Origin: a virus
Strand: one strand, 5' to 3'
DNA length: 64,000 nucleotides
IMG/VR virus record: IMGVR_UViG_3300010401_000006
Location: 1 to 64,000 of that record
Part shown: positions 1 to 19,001 of the stretch, piece by piece
How the letters are laid out: every line of letters begins with the position of its first letter
Position numbering within the stretch: position 1 is the stretch's first letter
Position numbers and translations under genes: made by a program
Notes under the pieces: model-generated
Seen by the model: the letters and a program-made list of their open reading frames with translations, nothing else
Told to the model about the DNA's origin: nothing
The model's database searches: none

Positions 1-870
1 CAAGAGATTGAGGCCATCGGCATCGAGCGCGATCTTGCTGGATTGCCGATTATGTGGGTTCCGCCAGAATGGACCTACCCGAACGCCAGCGCGGACGACA
101 AAGCGAAGTATGCGTCATGCAAAGAGGCTGTCCGCGATACGACCCGCAATGAGCAAGAAGGTTTTGTCTTTCCGCAGATGTATGACGAGAAAGGCAATAA
201 GCGTCTGGACTTCACGCTGCTGAGCACGGGTGGCCGCCGGCAGATCGACACCGACCCCATCGTTCAGCGTTACGACCACCGCATCGCAGCCACGTTCTTG
301 GCCGACTTCCTCATGCTCAGCATGGGCGGCAGCGGAGGATCGCGCGGCTCATTCGCCATGTCGAAGAACAAGACGGATATGTTCTCGACGGCCATCGAGT
401 TCATCCTCGACCTCATCACAGCCGAGTTCAACCGCCATGCCATCCCGGACATCCTCAAGCTCAACAGCATGGAAGGAAAATGCGTGCTCGTGCATGGCGA
501 TATTGCGAAGGGCGATATCTTGGAGTTCGCGCAGGCTGTGCAGGCGCTCACCGGCGTGGGCATGATCACGCCGACACCACAAACCGAGGCAACTGTGCGC
601 GAGGAAGTCGGGCTTAATCCGCTGGTTGGCGATGCGGGGCAAGACCTGCGCACGGGCGGCGCTGCATCCGAGGCGTCCGATGTCGACCCTGCAGCCACGC
701 AATCCGAAGCCTCCGACGCAGGACAGGGCCAAGGTGCGGGCGCAAATGCGGGTGGATCGCCCATGGTCATCCCCACAAAACCCGGCACCGCCAAGCGTCG
801 TGCGATCAATAAGGCTGCGTGGAAAAGCCCGATCCAGAAAGCAACACCCAATAGGAGTGCGAAGTCATGA
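1..870 (+). CDS. Portal protein, C-terminal part (DUF1073/gp6-like), 5' truncated
   Basis: The frame is open from base 1, so the gene starts before the window; 289 residues are visible. The line GIERDLAGLP near the left edge and the following PP-E-W segment are typical of the DUF1073 (gp6-like) portal family, which forms the dodecameric DNA gate at the capsid vertex. The tail of the protein (about residues 215-289) is Ala/Gly/Ser-rich and probably disordered. It sits directly before a minor head protein, the usual order. Relatives of this portal family are often linked to an Acb1 domain; here that domain is a separate gene at 2623. Its stop overlaps the next small ORF by ATGA. Confidence 0.8.
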   Translation, partial: QEIEAIGIERDLAGLPIMWVPPEWTYPNASADDKAKYASCKEAVRDTTRNEQEGFVFPQMYDEKGNKRLDFTLLSTGGRRQIDTDPIVQRYDHRIAATFLADFLMLSMGGSGGSRGSFAMSKNKTDMFSTAIEFILDLITAEFNRHAIPDILKLNSMEGKCVLVHGDIAKGDILEFAQAVQALTGVGMITPTPQTEATVREEVGLNPLVGDAGQDLRTGGAASEASDVDPAATQSEASDAGQGQGAGANAGGSPMVIPTKPGTAKRRAINKAAWKSPIQKATPNRSAKS

Positions 871-1206: not shown

Positions 1207-1446
1207 ATGAGCATGTTGACCATAAAGCACGTCGAGAAGAGCGGGTTCGAGAGCATCCAAATGGCGCATTCCGTTTGGACAGAGGACGATCAGAACGCCG
1301 ATGCGAAGCGACAAATTCTCGTCGCCTCTGGCTGCACCGCGCTTGGTGGCGCCACCGGCGCGGACGGCATTTGCCGCTATGGCAGCGGGACCGTCTACGT
1401 CATGAACGACGCCGGTGCCACGGTCGGGAAATACCACTTCGACTAG
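1207..1446 (+). CDS. Hypothetical head-module protein (79 aa)
   Basis: A strong purine-rich ribosome site (gcaggagaag) lies just before the ATG at 1207, so the open frame further upstream is ignored. The sequence MSMLTIKHVEKSGFES, followed by a Gly-rich region with two Cys and an acidic end, suggests a small beta-rich protein. The family is not recognised. Small proteins between portal and minor head protein in related phages are often structural, but that is only inference. Confidence 0.6.
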   Translation: MSMLTIKHVEKSGFESIQMAHSVWTEDDQNADAKRQILVASGCTALGGATGADGICRYGSGTVYVMNDAGATVGKYHFD

Positions 1447-1495
1447 CTCGCAACGCCGAGCGCGGGCGGCATATCCCGCGCACCTTGGACACACC

Positions 1496-2620
1496 ATGGA
1501 CCCGCACAGCCACGCCCACGACCTCCGCCAGCCCTCCCGCAGGCTTGTCCGCTCATGGAAGACGCCTATCGAGAAGGCCGCGCTGCGTAAGATTGCAGGC
1601 GAAGACCCTGAGACTGCGGCCCTCGACGCGAACACCTACGATTATCTCCTCACCTTGGCCGATAGTTGGGCGCCGGGACTGGCTGCGGCAATTGCGGCCG
1701 CGCTCAAGCGCTGGCGCGACAAGGCGACCATCGGAAACCTGATCTCAGCCGTCGAGACGGGGGATGTGAACGAGGCCATCCGCTTGGTCACGGAACAACT
1801 GGGCGACCCGACCGCGCTGGCCCAAGCCGTCGAACCGCCGCTGCTCACCATCACAGGCGAAGCCGGTGCCGAGGCGATCCCCAACACTATCGTTCCCGCT
1901 GTGACCGAAGCCGGAGGTCGCATAGCCGGCGGCCAGGTCAAGATGCGCTTCGACATGACAAACCCCTTTGCCATTCAGGCCGCGAAGGACAACAGCTATT
2001 CGCTGATCCGGCAGATATCCGACGACACCGTGGCCGGTATCCGGCAAGTCGTGTCCGACGCGATGGCATTCGGCGGCCATCCGACCGAGCAGGCCCGCAA
2101 GATCAGATCGCTGATCGGGCTCACCGAGACGCAGGCCGAAGCCGTTGGCAACTTCCGCGAGATGCTGGAGAACGGCGATGTCGAGGCGTTGAACCGTGCG
2201 CGCCGCGACCGCCGCTTCGACCCGACACTCGAACGCGCGCTTGGCGACAACCCAACTGTCGAACTCACACCCGACCAGATCGACACCATGGTCCAGCGAT
2301 ATGCGGATCGGACACTGGCTGCGCGTGCTGAGACCATCGCGCGGACGGAAACTATGCGCGCCTCGAACTTGGGTGTGCGCCTCGCTTGGCAGCAGGCTGT
2401 CGCCGACGGCTGGCTCGACGCGGGCACAAAGCGCCGCTGGCTCGCCACACCGGATGACCGGGTTTGCCCATTCTGTGTCGCTGCCGAAGTCATGAACCAG
2501 AACGGCGTCGGCCTCGACGAACCTTTCGAGACGCCATTCGGGCCGATGATGGATGCGACACTGCACCCGAATTGCCGGTGCATTTCGGTTATAATCCCAG
2601 CGTCCATGTCGGAGGGTTAG
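1496..2620 (+). CDS. Minor head protein, Mu gpF / SPP1 gp7-like
   Basis: The 374-residue protein ends with the hallmark of the Mu F-like family: a TPDDRVCPFC stretch (residues 318-327) followed about 30 residues later by LHPNCRC (356-362), a Cys/His cluster that probably binds metal. The N-terminal two thirds is helical. Members sit inside the procapsid and help assembly or DNA ejection. The position directly after the portal fits. ATG at 1496 is the first start after the preceding gene that gives a family-like N-terminus. Confidence 0.85.
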   Translation: MDPHSHAHDLRQPSRRLVRSWKTPIEKAALRKIAGEDPETAALDANTYDYLLTLADSWAPGLAAAIAAALKRWRDKATIGNLISAVETGDVNEAIRLVTEQLGDPTALAQAVEPPLLTITGEAGAEAIPNTIVPAVTEAGGRIAGGQVKMRFDMTNPFAIQAAKDNSYSLIRQISDDTVAGIRQVVSDAMAFGGHPTEQARKIRSLIGLTETQAEAVGNFREMLENGDVEALNRARRDRRFDPTLERALGDNPTVELTPDQIDTMVQRYADRTLAARAETIARTETMRASNLGVRLAWQQAVADGWLDAGTKRRWLATPDDRVCPFCVAAEVMNQNGVGLDEPFETPFGPMMDATLHPNCRCISVIIPASMSEG

Positions 2621-2622
2621 TG

Positions 2623-3312
2623 ATGTTCGGATCGTTTTCCGAAGCGCTCGGATCGGGTTGGCAGCGCGCGCTCAACTTCTTCAAAGCCGATGGCAGTCTA
2701 TATGTCCGGCGCAATCTGAAGAACGCAGATCAACTGCACGCATGGGCGAAGGATGCGGGCATCCCGAACCTTGTCCCGCCAGAAGAGATGCACGTCACGC
2801 AGGTCTATTCGCGCGCGCCTGTCATCCTCGCACCGCTCACGAACGAAGTGACCGCGCACGGTGGAGATCGTCACATCGCGCCGCTTGGCGATCAGGGTGC
2901 CGTCGTCATGCACTTCAAGTCCGACGAGTTGCAGCGGCGATGGGACGAGAGCCGTGCCGCCGGCGCATCGTGGGATTACGCAGGTTACAAGCCGCACGTC
3001 TCGCTGAGCTACGATGCAGGCGGCAAGGATGTGAGCACCATCAAAGCGCCAGACTTCCCGTTGCAATTCGGTCCTGAAATCCACGAACCGCTGAACGAGA
3101 ACTGGGCCGAGGACAAAGGCTTTCGGACAGCCAAGGGGTTCCGTGCGGCGCTCGACCGTTTCAATCCGGTGTCGTTCTTCAAAGACCAGCCCAGCGTCGG
3201 TGCTGTCCATGTCGCATCCGCATCAAGCGAGGCAGACGGCAAGAAGCCGAAGCGCAAGCCGAAGATGTTCACGGACGTGATGGCGAAGTTCGATCTGGCT
3301 GCGGAAGAATGA
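2623..3312 (+). CDS. 2H phosphoesterase, candidate anti-CBASS nuclease Acb1
   Basis: The 229-residue protein carries the two catalytic signatures of the 2H superfamily, H-V-T at residues 57-59 (EEMHVTQVYSR) and H-V-S at 125-127 (YKPHVSLSYD), about 68 residues apart as in a single 2H domain. Phage T4 Acb1 is a 2H enzyme that hydrolyses the cyclic oligonucleotides made by CBASS, and Acb1 domains are often linked to DUF1073-type portal proteins, the family at the left edge of this window. That neighbourhood favours Acb1 over a 2'-5' RNA ligase-like enzyme. The C-terminal 40 residues are basic (KKPKRKPK) and may be a tail. It starts 3 bases after the minor head gene and overlaps the next gene by ATGA. 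Confidence 0.62.
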   Translation: MFGSFSEALGSGWQRALNFFKADGSLYVRRNLKNADQLHAWAKDAGIPNLVPPEEMHVTQVYSRAPVILAPLTNEVTAHGGDRHIAPLGDQGAVVMHFKSDELQRRWDESRAAGASWDYAGYKPHVSLSYDAGGKDVSTIKAPDFPLQFGPEIHEPLNENWAEDKGFRTAKGFRAALDRFNPVSFFKDQPSVGAVHVASASSEADGKKPKRKPKMFTDVMAKFDLAAEE

Positions 3313-3554
3313 CCGTCGTCCCGCTTCTCAAATGCACCTGTGGCCAAGCTGGAACGCGCCGCGTGCTGCGCGGAAGCACCATTGAGCGTGAGATCATCGC
3401 TTGTGATGCCTGTTTCGATAAGACCGCTCAGCGCCTCGCGCACTTCCGGCCACTGTTCGACCAAATGATCGAACTCGGCATCAGCCGTGACATCGCAAAC
3501 CGGACCATGACCTTCATGCTTCAACAGATCGACCATCCAGCAAAGGAAACCTGA
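3309..3554 (+). CDS. Small zinc-finger-like hypothetical protein (81 aa)
   Basis: The ATG overlaps the previous stop. Residues 8-36 contain CTCG and CDAC pairs (C9, C11, C32, C35), a likely zinc ribbon, followed by a helical C-terminus (RPLFDQMIELGISRD). It is embedded in the head operon. Function unknown. Confidence 0.6.
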   Translation: MTVVPLLKCTCGQAGTRRVLRGSTIEREIIACDACFDKTAQRLAHFRPLFDQMIELGISRDIANRTMTFMLQQIDHPAKET

Positions 3555-3799
3555 TGATGTGGATTTTGATTTTGTACGTCGGCGTAGCGCTTCAGATGGA
3601 TGCGCAGCCCGTAGGTGGCCCGACAACCGCGCAATTCCCGACGCAGAAGGCGTGCGAGGCGGCGCTGGCGCAGTTCACGGACAGCCTCGGAACGGCGAAG
3701 GGTTTTGATCAGCGCGTCGAGGAGAACCCGGCCATGATGTCGCTCGGTCCCAACTCCCGCATCTGGACCGTCAAAGGCGTGTGTGTGCAGGCGAAATAG
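3554..3799 (+). CDS. Hypothetical protein with N-terminal hydrophobic segment (81 aa)
   Basis: The ATG overlaps the preceding TGA. Residues 1-16 are hydrophobic (MMWILILYVGVALQM), followed by a soluble part with two Cys (ACEAAL and GVCV), which looks like a small exported, disulfide-bonded protein. The family is not recognised. Confidence 0.55.
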   Translation: MMWILILYVGVALQMDAQPVGGPTTAQFPTQKACEAALAQFTDSLGTAKGFDQRVEENPAMMSLGPNSRIWTVKGVCVQAK

Positions 3800-3809
3800 C
3801 CCACCCCTG

Positions 3810-3856
3810 CTTTCCGAACCGGCGGCATCTGCCCCAGTTCGACTTTCCGAACCGGC
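3810..3856 (+). repeat. Two copies of a 14-bp direct repeat (CTTTCCGAACCGGC)
   Basis: The same 14 bases occur at 3810-3823 and 3843-3856, 33 bases apart, in the 121-base gap before the protease gene. A related string (CTTTCCGAACGC) lies upstream of the gene at 35002. Spacing and position suggest binding sites or a promoter element, but no protein partner is evident. Confidence 0.4.
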
Positions 3857-3920
3857 TCCCTCCATTGCCGCGCGCGCCGTTTCGCGCTAATCGTTACGCC
3901 GCTTTTGGTCAGGGGACCGC

Positions 3921-4319
3921 GTGGCGAACCAATTTGAAAAGCGCGTAGAGGTTCTGAAGGTCGATGACGGCCTTGGCGTCGTGCTCGGCTGGGCCATCAT
4001 CTGCAAGGAAGACGGCAAGCCCTACTACGACAGCCAGGACGATCACATCCCCGAAGAGGCGATGTTCAAGGCGGCCGTGGGCTTCATGGAAAACTCCCGC
4101 GCCACCCGTGAGATGCACGCCGGAGAACCGGACAGCACGTGCCTGTTCTGCTTCCCGCTGACCGAGGACGTGGCGAAAGCCTTCGGGCTGGAAACCAAGC
4201 AGACCGGGCTGCTCGTGGGCTACAAGCCTCCGCCGTCCGTGCTGGCAAAGTTCAAGTCTGGCGAATTCACAGGCTTCAGCATCGGCGGTCTGCGCGGTGA
4301 TGACGAGGAGGTCATCTGA
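3921..4319 (+). CDS. Prohead protease, XkdF-like (Peptidase_S78_2)
   Basis: The 132-residue protein matches the XkdF pattern: an early VLGWAIICKEDG strand, then YYDSQDDHIPEE, an SRATREMH segment, and the ending FKSGEFTGFSIGG. XkdF-type proteins are thought to be serine proteases that process the scaffold during capsid maturation. The gene starts with GTG after a short leader and is fused by an ATGA overlap to the scaffold-like gene, as in other XkdF loci. Catalytic residues were not assigned individually. Confidence 0.75.
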   Translation: MANQFEKRVEVLKVDDGLGVVLGWAIICKEDGKPYYDSQDDHIPEEAMFKAAVGFMENSRATREMHAGEPDSTCLFCFPLTEDVAKAFGLETKQTGLLVGYKPPPSVLAKFKSGEFTGFSIGGLRGDDEEVI

Positions 4320-5827
4320 TGGCCAAGCGGATCATGCGCTCGTTCCAGATGGACGAATTCTCTGCGGTCGACCGGCCGGCGCAGAAGGGGGCAAAGGCCG
4401 TCATACTCAAGCGCGTCACCGAAGACGGTCCGGACGACGCCGAATACATGCGCCTGACGAAGCGCGATTTCTCCGCCGAACAGCGCCGCTCCGCCGCCGA
4501 TTCTGGTGCCGCGATGCCTGGCGGACGCTATCCGATCGAGAACCGCTCCGACCTCGAGAACGCCATCCACGCGATCGGTCGCGGCAAGGGCAGCCATGCC
4601 GCAATCCGCGCGCACATCATCCGCCGGGCCAAAGCACTTGGCGCCATCGACGCACTTCCGGACGGCTGGACGGCTGCGAAGGGCGAGTTCATGAGCCGGG
4701 ACGTCGCCGCGCTGCGCGACACATTGCTCGGCACCGTCACGAAGATGGCGGACAAGCCGGAAGCACTCGGCACGATCATCGCCCTTGGCGATGCAGTCGA
4801 AAAAGCCTTTAAAACCGATGCCATTCGCGCGGACATGGAGAAAGCGCAGCCTGACATCGACGTCGCTCTGGGCGCGCTGTTCGTCTCCGCTCGCGACATC
4901 CTGAAGGAAGCGGCACCTGCCGAACAAAACGCCCTCTTGCAAAAATCATATGAAGAGTTCAGTTTCCACATCCAAAGTCTTATGCCGGGGGCTATTGCAA
5001 GTGCTTTGGACCCCACCGCACACAAAAACGGAGACGACGTGATGGCGCTCAAGGATTTTGCGAAGGCCCTGAACCTCGCGGAAACTGCGACCGAGGAAGA
5101 CATCACGAAGGCGCTTGGCGCGGCGCTCGCGAAGGCAGCTTTCGCCGATGCCATCGAGAAGATGAGCGCGAAACACTCCGCATTCATGAACAAGGACGGC
5201 GCCAAGATGCCGACGGGCGGCAAGGCCGCTTTCGCTGCGATGTCCGCCGACGAGCGCGACAAGCACATCGCCGCAAACTCCGCCTCCGACGACGATGCCG
5301 ACGACATGCAGAAGATGATCGCCAAGGGCGATGCCTTCCAGACCTCCGCTGGCGTGGTCATGACCAAGAAGGATTTTGGCACCGACGCGGGCTACCAGTT
5401 CGCCAAGGCCCAGAACACCGAATCCGTCCGTCTCGCCAAGGCCTTGGGCGAACAGGAAGACGTCAACCAGCGCGCTGCGATCACCAAGCGCGCGGAAACC
5501 GAATTCCCGAACGCCGGCAAGCCCGCCGAAGTCGCCGCCATGCTGCAGAAGGTCCGCAAGGCCGATGCAACGCTGGGCGATCAGGTCGAGGCCGTGCTGA
5601 AATCCATGAACACCGCCATCGAGAAGGGCGAGCTGTTCGCGGAGAAGGGTAACGCGCTCCGCGGCGCCGGTTCCGGCTTTGAGGCGATCGACAAGCTGGC
5701 GCATGAGCTGATGGCAAAAGACTCGAAACTTACGGTCGAGAAGGCGCGCAGTATGGCACGCACGCAGAACCCAGAATTCGCCAAGCGTGAAGCCGACGAC
5801 CGCAAGGCAGCCCTGAAAGCGGCCTGA
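4319..5827 (+). CDS. Scaffold-like / XkdF-associated protein (502 aa)
   Basis: The N-terminus (DEFSAVDRPAQKGAKAVILK) is the segment that in many phages follows the XkdF protease. Residues about 65-115 contain the RYPIENRSDLENAI...HIIRRAKALGA motif seen in many phage capsid-associated proteins. The rest is charged and helix-rich, as expected for an internal scaffold that is cleaved and lost before DNA packaging. Its place between protease and capsid genes supports this. Confidence 0.65.
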   Translation: MAKRIMRSFQMDEFSAVDRPAQKGAKAVILKRVTEDGPDDAEYMRLTKRDFSAEQRRSAADSGAAMPGGRYPIENRSDLENAIHAIGRGKGSHAAIRAHIIRRAKALGAIDALPDGWTAAKGEFMSRDVAALRDTLLGTVTKMADKPEALGTIIALGDAVEKAFKTDAIRADMEKAQPDIDVALGALFVSARDILKEAAPAEQNALLQKSYEEFSFHIQSLMPGAIASALDPTAHKNGDDVMALKDFAKALNLAETATEEDITKALGAALAKAAFADAIEKMSAKHSAFMNKDGAKMPTGGKAAFAAMSADERDKHIAANSASDDDADDMQKMIAKGDAFQTSAGVVMTKKDFGTDAGYQFAKAQNTESVRLAKALGEQEDVNQRAAITKRAETEFPNAGKPAEVAAMLQKVRKADATLGDQVEAVLKSMNTAIEKGELFAEKGNALRGAGSGFEAIDKLAHELMAKDSKLTVEKARSMARTQNPEFAKREADDRKAALKAA

Positions 5828-5831
5828 AGAC

Positions 5832-5840
5832 TGTAAGATT
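5832..5840 (-). promoter_or_regulatory. AATCTTACA motif (reverse orientation)
   Basis: On the minus strand this reads AATCTTACA, the same nonamer found in intergenic DNA at 48927, 61715, 61734, 63571 and 63595. It lies in the short gap between the scaffold-like and decoration genes. Its role is unknown. Confidence 0.35.
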
Positions 5841-5848
5841 ACCCGCCC

Positions 5849-5863
5849 CCGACGCGATGTCGG
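5849..5863 (+). promoter_or_regulatory. Leader hairpin before decoration gene
   Basis: CCGAC and GTCGG form a perfect 5-bp stem around the loop GCGAT, 26 bases before the ATG of the decoration gene. Similar short GC stems precede the major capsid and major tail genes. It may be an mRNA processing or stability element. Confidence 0.4.
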
Positions 5864-5889
5864 CGGCAGACCCTTTGACGGAGTGAAAG

Positions 5890-6312
5890 ATGGCTTGGGA
5901 AGCACCAGTCCTCGACCTGCCGGGCCAAGTTGCCGGTTCCACGTTTGCGACGGGCAATGGCTACAACGGCACGGGCCAGTTCCTTTTCGTGAAGCTGAGC
6001 GCCTCGAATACGGTCGTGCCATGCTCGGCGGTGACCGATATCCCGCTCGGCGTCTCGCAGGGCAACCCGGCATCGGGCGATGCGATCCAGGTTCGCGTTC
6101 TCGGCGTGACCAAGGTTTATGTCGGAACCGGCGGACTCACCATCGACCCCGACACCTTCGTCGGCACCGATGCGCAGGGTAAGGCGGTCATGAAGCGGCC
6201 CACCTCGTCCGGCGCGAACTACGGAAACTATGCGCGCGGTATCGCGCTCGAGACTGCGAACGCCGGCGAGCTTGGCACGATCCTGCTTATCGGCCCTTGG
6301 ACCGTTCACTAG
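5890..6312 (+). CDS. Head decoration protein, DUF2190-like
   Basis: A 140-residue beta-rich protein placed immediately before the major capsid gene. It has a run such as DIPLGVSQGNPASGDAI followed by RVLGVTKV and a GxALE-type segment (RGIALETANAGE), the pattern of DUF2190-type capsid stabilising proteins that bind the capsid surface. The start is ATG at 5890 after a ggagtgaaag ribosome site. Confidence 0.7.
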   Translation: MAWEAPVLDLPGQVAGSTFATGNGYNGTGQFLFVKLSASNTVVPCSAVTDIPLGVSQGNPASGDAIQVRVLGVTKVYVGTGGLTIDPDTFVGTDAQGKAVMKRPTSSGANYGNYARGIALETANAGELGTILLIGPWTVH

Positions 6313-6445: not shown

Positions 6446-7405
6446 ATGTCGCAGCCGACACCCCAAGACGTCCACGTAGACTTTGCGTTGACGGACTTCT
6501 CCATCGCCTACATCCAGGACGACACGAACTTCGTCGCGCGCCGGGCCATCAAGTCCAAGCCCGTGCAGCACATGACGAACAAGTATTTCATCTTCAACAA
6601 GAACGACTGGAACCGCGACGACGCGATGAAGCCCCGTGCTCCGGGCGAGCCCGCGCCGCGCTCCGGCTTCACGCTGTCGACCGGCAGCTATGACTGCACG
6701 GCGTGGTGGACCGAAGTCCCGCTGTCCGACATGGTGGTCAAGAACGCCGATCCGAGCCTGCCGCTTGATCAGGCCGCGACCCGCCTCGTGACGCAGCGCT
6801 CGCTGATCCGTCAGGACTCGCTGTTCGCATCGAAGTTCTTCGCCACCGGCATCTGGGGCACGGATGTGGTTGGCGGGACGGACTTCACGAAGTGGTCCGA
6901 CTATGCGTCGGATCCAGAGAAGAACATCGACGATGGCCAGGTCGCCGTCGCGCAGAACACCGGCCGCACGCCGAATACGCTGATCGTGTCGCTTGCCGTT
7001 CACAAGGCCCTGAAGCGCAATCCGGTCATCAAGGACAAGTACAAATACACGTCCTCGGAATCGATCACCGAGGAGATGATCGCGCGCGCGCTGGAGCTCG
7101 ACAACTACATCGTCGGCAAGGCGTCCTATGCGACGAACAACGAAGGCGGTGCCGCGGCATATGCGTTCCTGCTCGGCAAGAATGCGCTGCTGGCTTATCT
7201 CGACCAGGCCCCGACGATCATGGAGCCGTGCGCGGCCGCGATCTTCGACTGGACGGAGCTGACGGCGGTGAATTCGGCCGGCGTCGCGATCGACCAGTAC
7301 TACGACGTAAAGGTCAAGGATGACGTGATCCGCGGCCAGTTCGCCTTCGACATGAAGGTGACCGGTTCGGACCTCGGCTATTTCTACAGCGCAGCCGTCG
7401 CCTGA
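6446..7405 (+). CDS. Major capsid protein
   Basis: A 319-residue protein with the length, position and soluble alpha/beta composition of a tailed-phage major capsid protein. It lies after protease, scaffold-like and decoration genes and has a long structured leader. Motifs such as RRAIKSKPVQ near residue 33, PNTLIVSLAVHKAL near 180 and the C-terminal YYDVKVKDDVIRGQ resemble capsid proteins in the DUF2190-linked family. It should form the HK97-fold icosahedral shell. No separate N-terminal cleavage domain is obvious, consistent with an independent scaffold gene. Confidence 0.82.
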   Translation: MSQPTPQDVHVDFALTDFSIAYIQDDTNFVARRAIKSKPVQHMTNKYFIFNKNDWNRDDAMKPRAPGEPAPRSGFTLSTGSYDCTAWWTEVPLSDMVVKNADPSLPLDQAATRLVTQRSLIRQDSLFASKFFATGIWGTDVVGGTDFTKWSDYASDPEKNIDDGQVAVAQNTGRTPNTLIVSLAVHKALKRNPVIKDKYKYTSSESITEEMIARALELDNYIVGKASYATNNEGGAAAYAFLLGKNALLAYLDQAPTIMEPCAAAIFDWTELTAVNSAGVAIDQYYDVKVKDDVIRGQFAFDMKVTGSDLGYFYSAAVA

Positions 7406-17696: not shown

Positions 17697-18109
17697 GCTT
17701 TCCCGTCCTGCTCGATGACGTGGCTGCGGCGATCGTGACCGCAGCAATCGGCACGGCCACGGCGGGAGATGATTGGTTCGTGATGAAGGCCTACATGGCC
17801 GATCAGCCTGACCGCGCCATCTGCGTTTATCCGCGGCCAGGCGCGGCACCGGACCCGTCATGGTCTATCGACAGCCCACAGTTTCAGGTCGCGGTGCGAG
17901 GTGGCGAGGCAGACATCAATCTCGTCCTGTCGAAGCTCCAGAACTGCATCGATCTTCTGCACTCTGGCGAGGTCTATCTGAGCGCAACCCCAAACACCTA
18001 TGTCTACTGCTACGCTCTACATTCGGGCTTTATCCCGCTGGGGCCAGATGAAAAGGCACGCTACAGGGCAGCGGTGAATTTCAGGACGGAGAGGAATACG
18101 GGACTATGA
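17693..18109 (+). CDS. Tail terminator protein candidate (138 aa)
   Basis: The position between the gp10-like gene and later tail genes, the size, and the pattern (SPQFQVAVRG, then NLVLSKLQNCIDLL, and a C-terminal YRAAVNFRTERN) match tail-terminator/minor capsid proteins that form the ring ending tail-tube growth. ATG overlaps the preceding stop by ATGA. Confidence 0.65.
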   Translation: MSFPVLLDDVAAAIVTAAIGTATAGDDWFVMKAYMADQPDRAICVYPRPGAAPDPSWSIDSPQFQVAVRGGEADINLVLSKLQNCIDLLHSGEVYLSATPNTYVYCYALHSGFIPLGPDEKARYRAAVNFRTERNTGL

Positions 18110-18327
18110 CGATGCACAAAACGACGTTTGAGTACCTGAAGCCGACTGACGAACAGATCGAGAAAATGGCCAGGCTGAGAGCGGCCGCAAAAGCCTACAA
18201 CGACGCTCTCGACACCGAATTGCCGGATGGACCGGACAAAACTTTCGTGATCCGCGCGCACCGCTCCAACGCGATGTGGGCAAACGTCGCCGTCACCCGG
18301 CACCCAGACGGCACGCCGCGCTGGTGA
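18106..18327 (+). CDS. Acb2/Tad1-like cyclic-nucleotide sponge candidate (73 aa)
   Basis: The 73-residue protein has a helical hairpin (QIEKMARLRAAAKAYNDAL, residues 17-35) followed by LPDGPDKTFVIRAHRS and the signature AMWANVAVTR (56-65). This is the pattern I know from small phage proteins of the Acb2/Tad1 hairpin family, whose members bind and hide the cyclic nucleotides used by CBASS and Thoeris. The conserved M-W-A-N before the second-helix end is the strongest cue. It begins in an ATGA overlap after the tail terminator and ends in a GTGA overlap with the sugar cassette, so it is expressed with structural genes. Family assignment is by eye. Confidence 0.6.
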   Translation: MTMHKTTFEYLKPTDEQIEKMARLRAAAKAYNDALDTELPDGPDKTFVIRAHRSNAMWANVAVTRHPDGTPRW

Positions 18328-19001
18328 AACACGGTATCCCGCCGATCTTCCGAGATCAGACCGTCGCCATAGTTGCAGGCGGGCCCAGCCTCAAAGGCTT
18401 CCAATTCGACCAACTTGCCGGTACCCCGTCCATCGCCATCAACCGCGCGCACGAGTTCATGCCGCGCGCGACGATGCTTTACTGGGGTGACGCGATCTTC
18501 TGGCGCAAGAACCTGTTCAATCTGCTCGCACACCAGGCGACATGGAAAGTCACGCTCAACCTCAACTATGCGGGCGGAGAAATCATGCCTCCGGTCGTGC
18601 AATACACCGTGAGCGGGCGCGAGGGTTACGATCCCAAGCCCGGCCGCATCCGCCACGGCAATAACTCGGCCTATGCCGCGATGCACCTGGCCGTCCAATT
18701 GGGCGCGCGCCGCCTCGTCCTATTCGGTGTCGACATGCACTACGGGCCAAACGGTGAGTCGCACTTCCACAGCGGCTACGACAGTTCGACACAGACCGAG
18801 GAAACGCTCCGCCGCATGATGCTCCCGCACTTCGCCTCGCTCGTAGAGCCGTTCGAGCAAATGGGGGTTGAGGTTTTCAACGCATCCCCCGATAGTGCGC
18901 TTCGTCTGTGGCCACGTGTCGCACTCTCCGAAGGGGTCGCCATCTGCACGAAGTTCTTACCGACCACGCCAAGCAAAGGGCATTCGAGCGCTACGGCGTA
19001 A
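18324..19001 (+). CDS. MptE/DUF115-like protein (glycan or nucleotide transfer)
   Basis: GTG at 18324 overlaps the previous stop. The N-terminus has VAIVAGGPSLKGFQFDQL then PSIAINRAHEFMPRA and WGDAIFW, the Rossmann-like pattern of DUF115/MptE-like proteins (a nucleotide loop G-G-G-P-S-L followed by I-x-x-N). The later RLVLFGVDMHYG strand fits too. DUF115 proteins include flagellin sialic/pseudaminic-type glycosyltransferases. It opens a cassette of sugar and methyl transferases, so glycan decoration of the virion is the likely context. Confidence 0.65.
   Translation: MKHGIPPIFRDQTVAIVAGGPSLKGFQFDQLAGTPSIAINRAHEFMPRATMLYWGDAIFWRKNLFNLLAHQATWKVTLNLNYAGGEIMPPVVQYTVSGREGYDPKPGRIRHGNNSAYAAMHLAVQLGARRLVLFGVDMHYGPNGESHFHSGYDSSTQTEETLRRMMLPHFASLVEPFEQMGVEVFNASPDSALRLWPRVALSEGVAICTKFLPTTPSKGHSSATA

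Follow-up and report, generated by a model that had tools for sequence, protein, structure and literature searches.

A predicted 2H phosphodiesterase gene lies among the head genes of a phage represented by IMG/VR record IMGVR_UViG_3300010401_000006, which raises the questions of what such an enzyme does there and where it came from. We analyzed positions 1 to 64,000 of this 67,403-base record, and this whole 64,000-nucleotide stretch is here referred to as the window. Because both record ends share an exact 123-bp direct repeat (window positions 1 to 123 and the last 123 bases), the phage genome is probably complete, at ~67.28 kb, and circularly permuted. The record breaks within the portal gene, whose N-terminal part lies at the far end, and the genes run in the order terminase, portal, MuF, Acb1, two small ORFs, XkdF protease, scaffold-like protein, small protein, and capsid. 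The features of the window that concern us are as follows.

1..870, + strand: Mu-type portal, C-terminal part (PF06074, 108 bits on the protein joined across the record ends)
1415..2620, + strand: minor head protein of MuF type, with an uncertain start codon (PF04233, E=3.6e-9; phrog_3517 head morphogenesis, E=1.7e-61)
2611..2616, + strand: likely ribosome-binding sequence GGAGGG of the Acb1 gene, six bases before the ATG
2623..3312, + strand: stand-alone Acb1-family 2H phosphodiesterase gene, 229 aa, ATG start (PF23474, E=6.4e-39)
2695..3114, + strand: Acb1 domain proper, residues 25-164 (Pfam envelope; AF2 core pLDDT mostly 89-98)
2791..2799, + strand: first catalytic motif, H57-V-T59, equivalent to T4 H44/T46 (alignment with T4 Acb1)
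2995..3003, + strand: second catalytic motif, H125-V-S127, equivalent to T4 H113/T115 (alignment with T4 Acb1)
3115..3309, + strand: C-terminal tail of 65 residues, low confidence (pLDDT 53-74 by blocks), beyond the Acb1 profile
3309..3554, + strand: small ORF, 81 aa, between Acb1 and XkdF, without a family (ORF list, Pfam, PHROG)
3554..3799, + strand: small ORF, 81 aa, between Acb1 and XkdF, without a family (ORF list, profile search)
3921..4319, + strand: XkdF-type prohead protease (PF14550, E=3.8e-6, 27.3 bits against a cut-off of 24)
4319..5827, + strand: putative scaffold-like protein (BLAST matches in L005, L006, and L008; gene order shared with relatives)
6446..7405, + strand: major capsid protein, E type (PF03864, 22.6 bits, slightly below the 22.9 cut-off; homologues in L006, L008, and L012)
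18106..18327, + strand: Acb2/Tad1-hairpin protein of the cyclic-nucleotide sponge family, 73 aa (PF24729, 34.7 bits against a cut-off of 27)

The first-pass annotation had taken the ORF at 2623-3312, with HVT at residues 57 to 59 and HVS at residues 125 to 127, for an Acb1-type anti-CBASS nuclease located two main genes after the portal. The translation reads as described, and the order portal, MuF, Acb1 is correct; the MuF stop codon (TAG) occupies 2618-2620, and the Acb1 ATG lies two bases downstream. The Acb1 profile search that the annotation had proposed gave 133.4 bits for PF23474 against a curated cut-off of 27 and covered profile positions 2 to 144 of 144, a match far beyond chance. 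This ORF was the sole Acb1 match within the 67,403-base record, and the only other profile that it matched in Pfam, CPDase, was sub-threshold (0.13). When the PDB was searched with the sequence, only the Pam3 portal, which has a C-terminal Acb1 domain, and FBB1 Acb1 were matched; a 71-sequence profile again placed these two at the top, followed by a Burkholderia phage Acb1. No NCBIfam model matched the window Acb1, and no PADLOC model matched the anti-CBASS candidate genes of the window.

We next compared the residues of the window protein with those whose catalytic and ligand roles are described for T4 and FBB1 Acb1 by Hobbs et al. (PMC9117128). The HxT/HxT tetrad of T4 (H44/T46/H113/T115) corresponds to H57/T59/H125/S127, all kept, with Ser in place of Thr115 as in 19 of the 147 rows of our Acb1 alignment. 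Four of the five T4 ligand residues are likewise retained (Y12, F107, E141, and W147 as Y27, Y119, E155, and W161), while the fifth, W74, aligns to A86; tryptophan stands there in only two of the 147 rows, both of them T4. An equivalent of H113 is present in 145/147 rows and T/S115 in 146/147, although the loci were retrieved with patterns containing HxT motifs, so that conservation of the retrieval motif is partly built in. Among the 55 genome loci retrieved by the first motif alone, the second His is retained in all but one (L119, where it is Asn). The ~30% identity to T4 Acb1 leaves room for an altered substrate range of the window Acb1.

An AlphaFold2 model of the window Acb1, built from 71 sequences, had a mean pLDDT of 81, with a core mostly at 89-98 and values near or under 60 after about residue 170. 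For the C-terminal tail, docking, packaging, or the remnant of a former fusion are conceivable roles, each of them a guess. The model superposed on FBB1 Acb1 in complex with 3'3'-cGAMP with a Z of 18.8 (rmsd 1.6 Å over 135 residues) and on the Burkholderia phage Acb1 with a Z of 14.7, compared to at most 11.4 for LigT-type 2H enzymes, and Foldseek gave 1.8e-11 for Acb1 versus 6.4e-5 for LigT-type enzymes. The first-pass annotation had named a closer fold match to a 2'-5' RNA ligase-like enzyme as the result that would speak against it; with these Z values, FBB1 Acb1 is the best match, and a LigT/2'-5' RNA ligase identity was rejected on its weaker profile and fold. The protein might still serve RNA repair rather than cut immune signals, by trimming 2',3'-cyclic phosphate or 2'-5' RNA ends in the manner of a LigT/CPDase/Usb1-type enzyme. 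The superfamily fold is shared (LigT Z of ~11), the window Acb1 falls in PHROG 755, a family labelled "RNA ligase," as T4 57B likewise is in GenBank, and Iyer et al. 2017 weighed an RNase role for the 2H domains that phages carry in fusion with MuF or portal proteins (PMC5512222). We nevertheless consider this role very unlikely, given that profile, fold, and residues are clearly nearer Acb1 and that Iyer et al. saw this 2H version never adjoining RNA ligases.

The identity that had been predicted, an Acb1-type anti-CBASS nuclease, is thus supported by the profile match, the key residues, the fold, and the hits among solved structures. Considering these observations together with the position of the gene and its fused relatives, we regard it as highly probable that the window Acb1 is a late CBASS-signal nuclease that cleaves 3'-5' cyclic di- and trinucleotides, keeping cell-killing effectors off. 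The substrates, late timing, and benefit to the phage that we infer are these. Because the gene sits in the head operon, late expression is expected, with Acb1 being made from the head-assembly operon; it would then destroy the 3'-5'-linked cyclic di- and trinucleotides of CBASS, and effectors would stay off until virions are finished. By homology with FBB1 and T4, the signal bases would stack on Y27, Y119, and W161, and E155 would read an adenine. The acid and base would be supplied by H57 and H125 together with T59 and S127, the 2'-OH would attack the 3'-5' bond, and the resulting 2',3'-cyclic phosphate intermediate would then be hydrolysed; metal-independent opening 3' of adenosine should, again by homology, silence CBASS effectors (PMC9117128). 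The nine additional Acb1 homologues that Hobbs et al. assayed all cut 3'3'-cGAMP and cAAA, and T4 Acb1 activity appears ~15 min after infection, at the onset of CBASS killing (PMC9117128). We counted the coupling of the gene to MuF, inside the head cluster, in favor of the nuclease reading, and the replacement of W74 by A86, the Ser for the second Thr, and the ~30% identity to T4 against it.

An Acb2 gene elsewhere in this genome also fits a counter-signalling role of Acb1. That one phage carries both, with the Acb2-like gene at 18106, had been claimed from the sequence and is confirmed at the gene level by a PF24729 match above its cut-off; phage T4 likewise encodes both Acb1 and Acb2 (PMC12657230, PMC11722364). 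Right after Acb2, the ORF at 18276-19001 has a weak MptE-like diphosphokinase match (26 bits, cut-off 34.6).

A nuclease of Acb1 type could also be directed mainly against a nucleotide signal outside CBASS, for instance the 2'3'-c-di-AMP that Panoptes uses or a cyclic trinucleotide of another system. T4 Acb1 degrades 2'3'-c-di-AMP too (PMC12657230), and one of the five ligand residues differs. However, loss of the Panoptes signal sets that defence off rather than blocking it (PMC12657230), and the adenine reader E155 is retained as in CBASS-cleaving Acb1; we hold a main target outside CBASS to be very unlikely.

We then surveyed the contexts of 147 Acb1 ORFs, a set that contains both the window and T4 in duplicate, as well as some loci that are near-copies. 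Portal fusions account for 96 of these ORFs: 73 with DUF1073 portals, 18 with Mu-type portals, 2 with DUF1073 portals that carry a C-terminal ADP-ribosyltransferase, and 3 with PF04860-type portals, MuF being present as well in two of the three. Fusions to prohead-protease-type partners number 18 (10 XkdF, 3 Peptidase_S78, and 5 DUF2213, the last counted as protease or scaffold by position only). Six ORFs are fused to MuF and one to an ADP-ribosyltransferase, 12 are short solo ORFs, some of which are broken portals, and 14 are large or of undetermined type; two giant ORFs bear helicase or methyltransferase domains. The carriers are many phages and prophages, with named hosts mostly among alphaproteobacteria, and the domain lies largely within head proteins. 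In Roseobacter phage DSS3P8, gp129 (L011:2989-3441) is annotated "prohead protease, HK97 family"; since its profile match and length are those of a 150-aa solo Acb1, this label is probably wrong.

Because sister domains are fused to portal, MuF, ADP-ribosyltransferase, and protease, an association with the head can be argued, and the window Acb1 may be tied to the head or packaged in it, as such fusions suggest. This is less certain than the nuclease assignment; the window protein has no fusion partner and carries only its 65-residue low-confidence tail. The dominance of head-protein fusions among the contexts of the domain would also suit a head component that merely has an Acb1 fold, in which enzyme activity is irrelevant and the fusions reflect an assembly role. 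Two relatives have a lost or altered second His: L009:1206-3824, a portal-Acb1-MuF-like fusion whose Acb1 is probably inactive because the stretch bearing the second HxT motif is missing, and L119:5335-8496, a NUDIX-Acb1-XkdF fusion on a Rhodocyclaceae contig in which this His is Asn. Against a purely structural part, to which we give little credence, stand the near-universal second motif (H113 equivalent in 145/147 rows and T/S115 in 146/147, many of them retrieved by the first motif only), the stand-alone state of T4 Acb1, and the movement of the domain among unrelated head proteins.

Where did a solo Acb1 gene in this position come from? The first-pass annotation had supposed that the domain was split off a neighboring DUF1073-type portal. 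The portal of the window is PF06074 Portal_Mu (108 bits), and a Pfam search of the joined protein gave no PF06381/DUF1073 match; the window Acb1 is its own ORF near a Mu-type portal rather than a DUF1073-portal-linked domain, and origin by splitting from a DUF1073 portal was rejected because the portal is Mu-type. The nearest relatives point elsewhere. Their Acb1 domains, 53-64% identical to that of the window, lie N-terminal to an XkdF-type protease in one polypeptide; these Acb1-XkdF fusions are found on the IMG/VR contigs L005 (ORF 3485-4657), L006, and L007/L008 (ORF 4995-5942). In the tree, the window Acb1 clusters with L005, L006, L007, and L016 (support 94/88). A clade with Mu-portal-fused Acb1, as expected from splitting off a Mu-type portal, was rejected (p-AU 0.025), as was a single clade for all XkdF-fused Acb1 (p-AU 0.003), the groupings having been chosen after an initial look at the tree, which somewhat weakens these p values. 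Fusions of Acb1 to proteases therefore appear to have arisen more than once (p=0.003).

Two of these relatives have features of their own. The L016 ORF (4266-6185; ~61% to the window Acb1) is multi-domain, with a C-terminal part that comes after Acb1 and resembles the RelA/SpoT-type toxin Tas1 (E=4e-6) and an N-terminal part that, judged by eye only, is ADP-ribosyltransferase-like. The MuF homologue upstream of the fusion in L005 (500-2401) contains a probable intein (PF14890, 28 bits, below its cut-off).

In the window, the XkdF-type gene (3921-4319) is a separate ORF from Acb1 (2623-3312). H66 and S120 are invariant across 53 XkdF sequences, and a dead protease, suspected from an "ES" motif of L022 that is missing elsewhere, was rejected on this invariance. 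The XkdF model is closest to the T4 gp21 capsid protease (Z of 9.1), with the HCMV protease weakly next, but a Foldseek search with it returned nothing significant, so the fold evidence is moderate; a capsid protease is plausible. In an XkdF-based search, 9 of the 80 loci had a fused Acb1, 39 had other N-terminal extensions of at least 45 aa, several of them ParB-like, and 32 had none. Because these extensions differ among the loci, the XkdF N terminus looks like an attachment place for varied cargo. Where others carry Acb1, the XkdF ORFs of L153, L158, L179, and L222 carry N-terminal ParB-like domains (weak Pfam matches), and these domains may be the reason why databases use the odd label "DNA methyltransferase/prohead protease." The XkdF gene of Erythrobacter phage R6L has no fused Acb1.

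These fusions are of special interest because the Bas13 prohead protease is reported, according to PMC12409349, to interact with a CBASS sensor and trigger it (Richmond-Buccola 2024); a causal link between protease sensing and Acb1 fusion is speculation. One tentative possibility, which we hold to be doubtful, is that phages repeatedly tether Acb1 to capsid parts (protease, portal, and MuF) that either are sensed by CBASS or are carried in the virion, so that the signal would be degraded at the place and time of its synthesis or the enzyme would enter together with the DNA; the window gene would then be a protease-tethered Acb1 set free. If fusion does couple trigger to antidote, or delivers the enzyme alongside the DNA, direct tests of when anti-CBASS action takes place become possible.

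Much of this is already known, namely, Acb1 and its chemistry, its portal and MuF fusions, and the co-occurrence of Acb1 and Acb2 in T4. Among phage proteins, Acb1 has been described as relatively rare and confined to certain groups (PMC11722364). Iyer et al. 2017 (PMC5512222) and a 2022 survey (PMC9503650) predicted that 2H domains in MuF or portal fusions are injected and have a counter-signalling role; as fusion partners, the text of Iyer et al. mentions MuF and portal proteins but not prohead proteases. In the article texts searched, we found no fusion of Acb1 to a prohead protease, nor the recurrence of such fusions. The window gene is a further Acb1-family member in an informative place.

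Compared with T4 gp57B and FBB1 Acb1 (PDB 7t26/7t27, PMC9117128), the window Acb1 shares the 2H fold, the HxT/HxT-type tetrad, the stand-alone state, and the equivalents of Y12, F/Y107, E141, and W147. It differs from T4 Acb1 in its ~30% identity, the replaced W74, the Ser for Thr115, and the 65-aa C-terminal tail, and also in its surroundings, as T4 acb1 adjoins the tail-fibre chaperone gene 57A whereas the window gene sits in a head-gene cluster. As with the Acb2 of T4 (Vs.4 type), the window encodes a member of the sponge family, whose fold is unrelated to that of Acb1. Portal-fused Acb1 (PF06381/DUF1073 and PF06074; e.g., the Pam3 portal, 8hds) has the same Pfam domain and catalytic residues but forms the C-terminal part of the portal, and a grouping of the window Acb1 with the Mu-portal versions is rejected (p-AU 0.025, as above). 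The 2H domains of polyvalent phage proteins (Iyer et al. 2017, PMC5512222) are tied to head proteins, with a predicted action against nucleotide-based immunity; the window version is solo. The Acb1-XkdF fusion loci have the same order of portal, MuF, Acb1/XkdF, scaffold, and capsid; where they have one polypeptide, the window has two genes separated by ~0.6 kb, a gap that holds two small ORFs.
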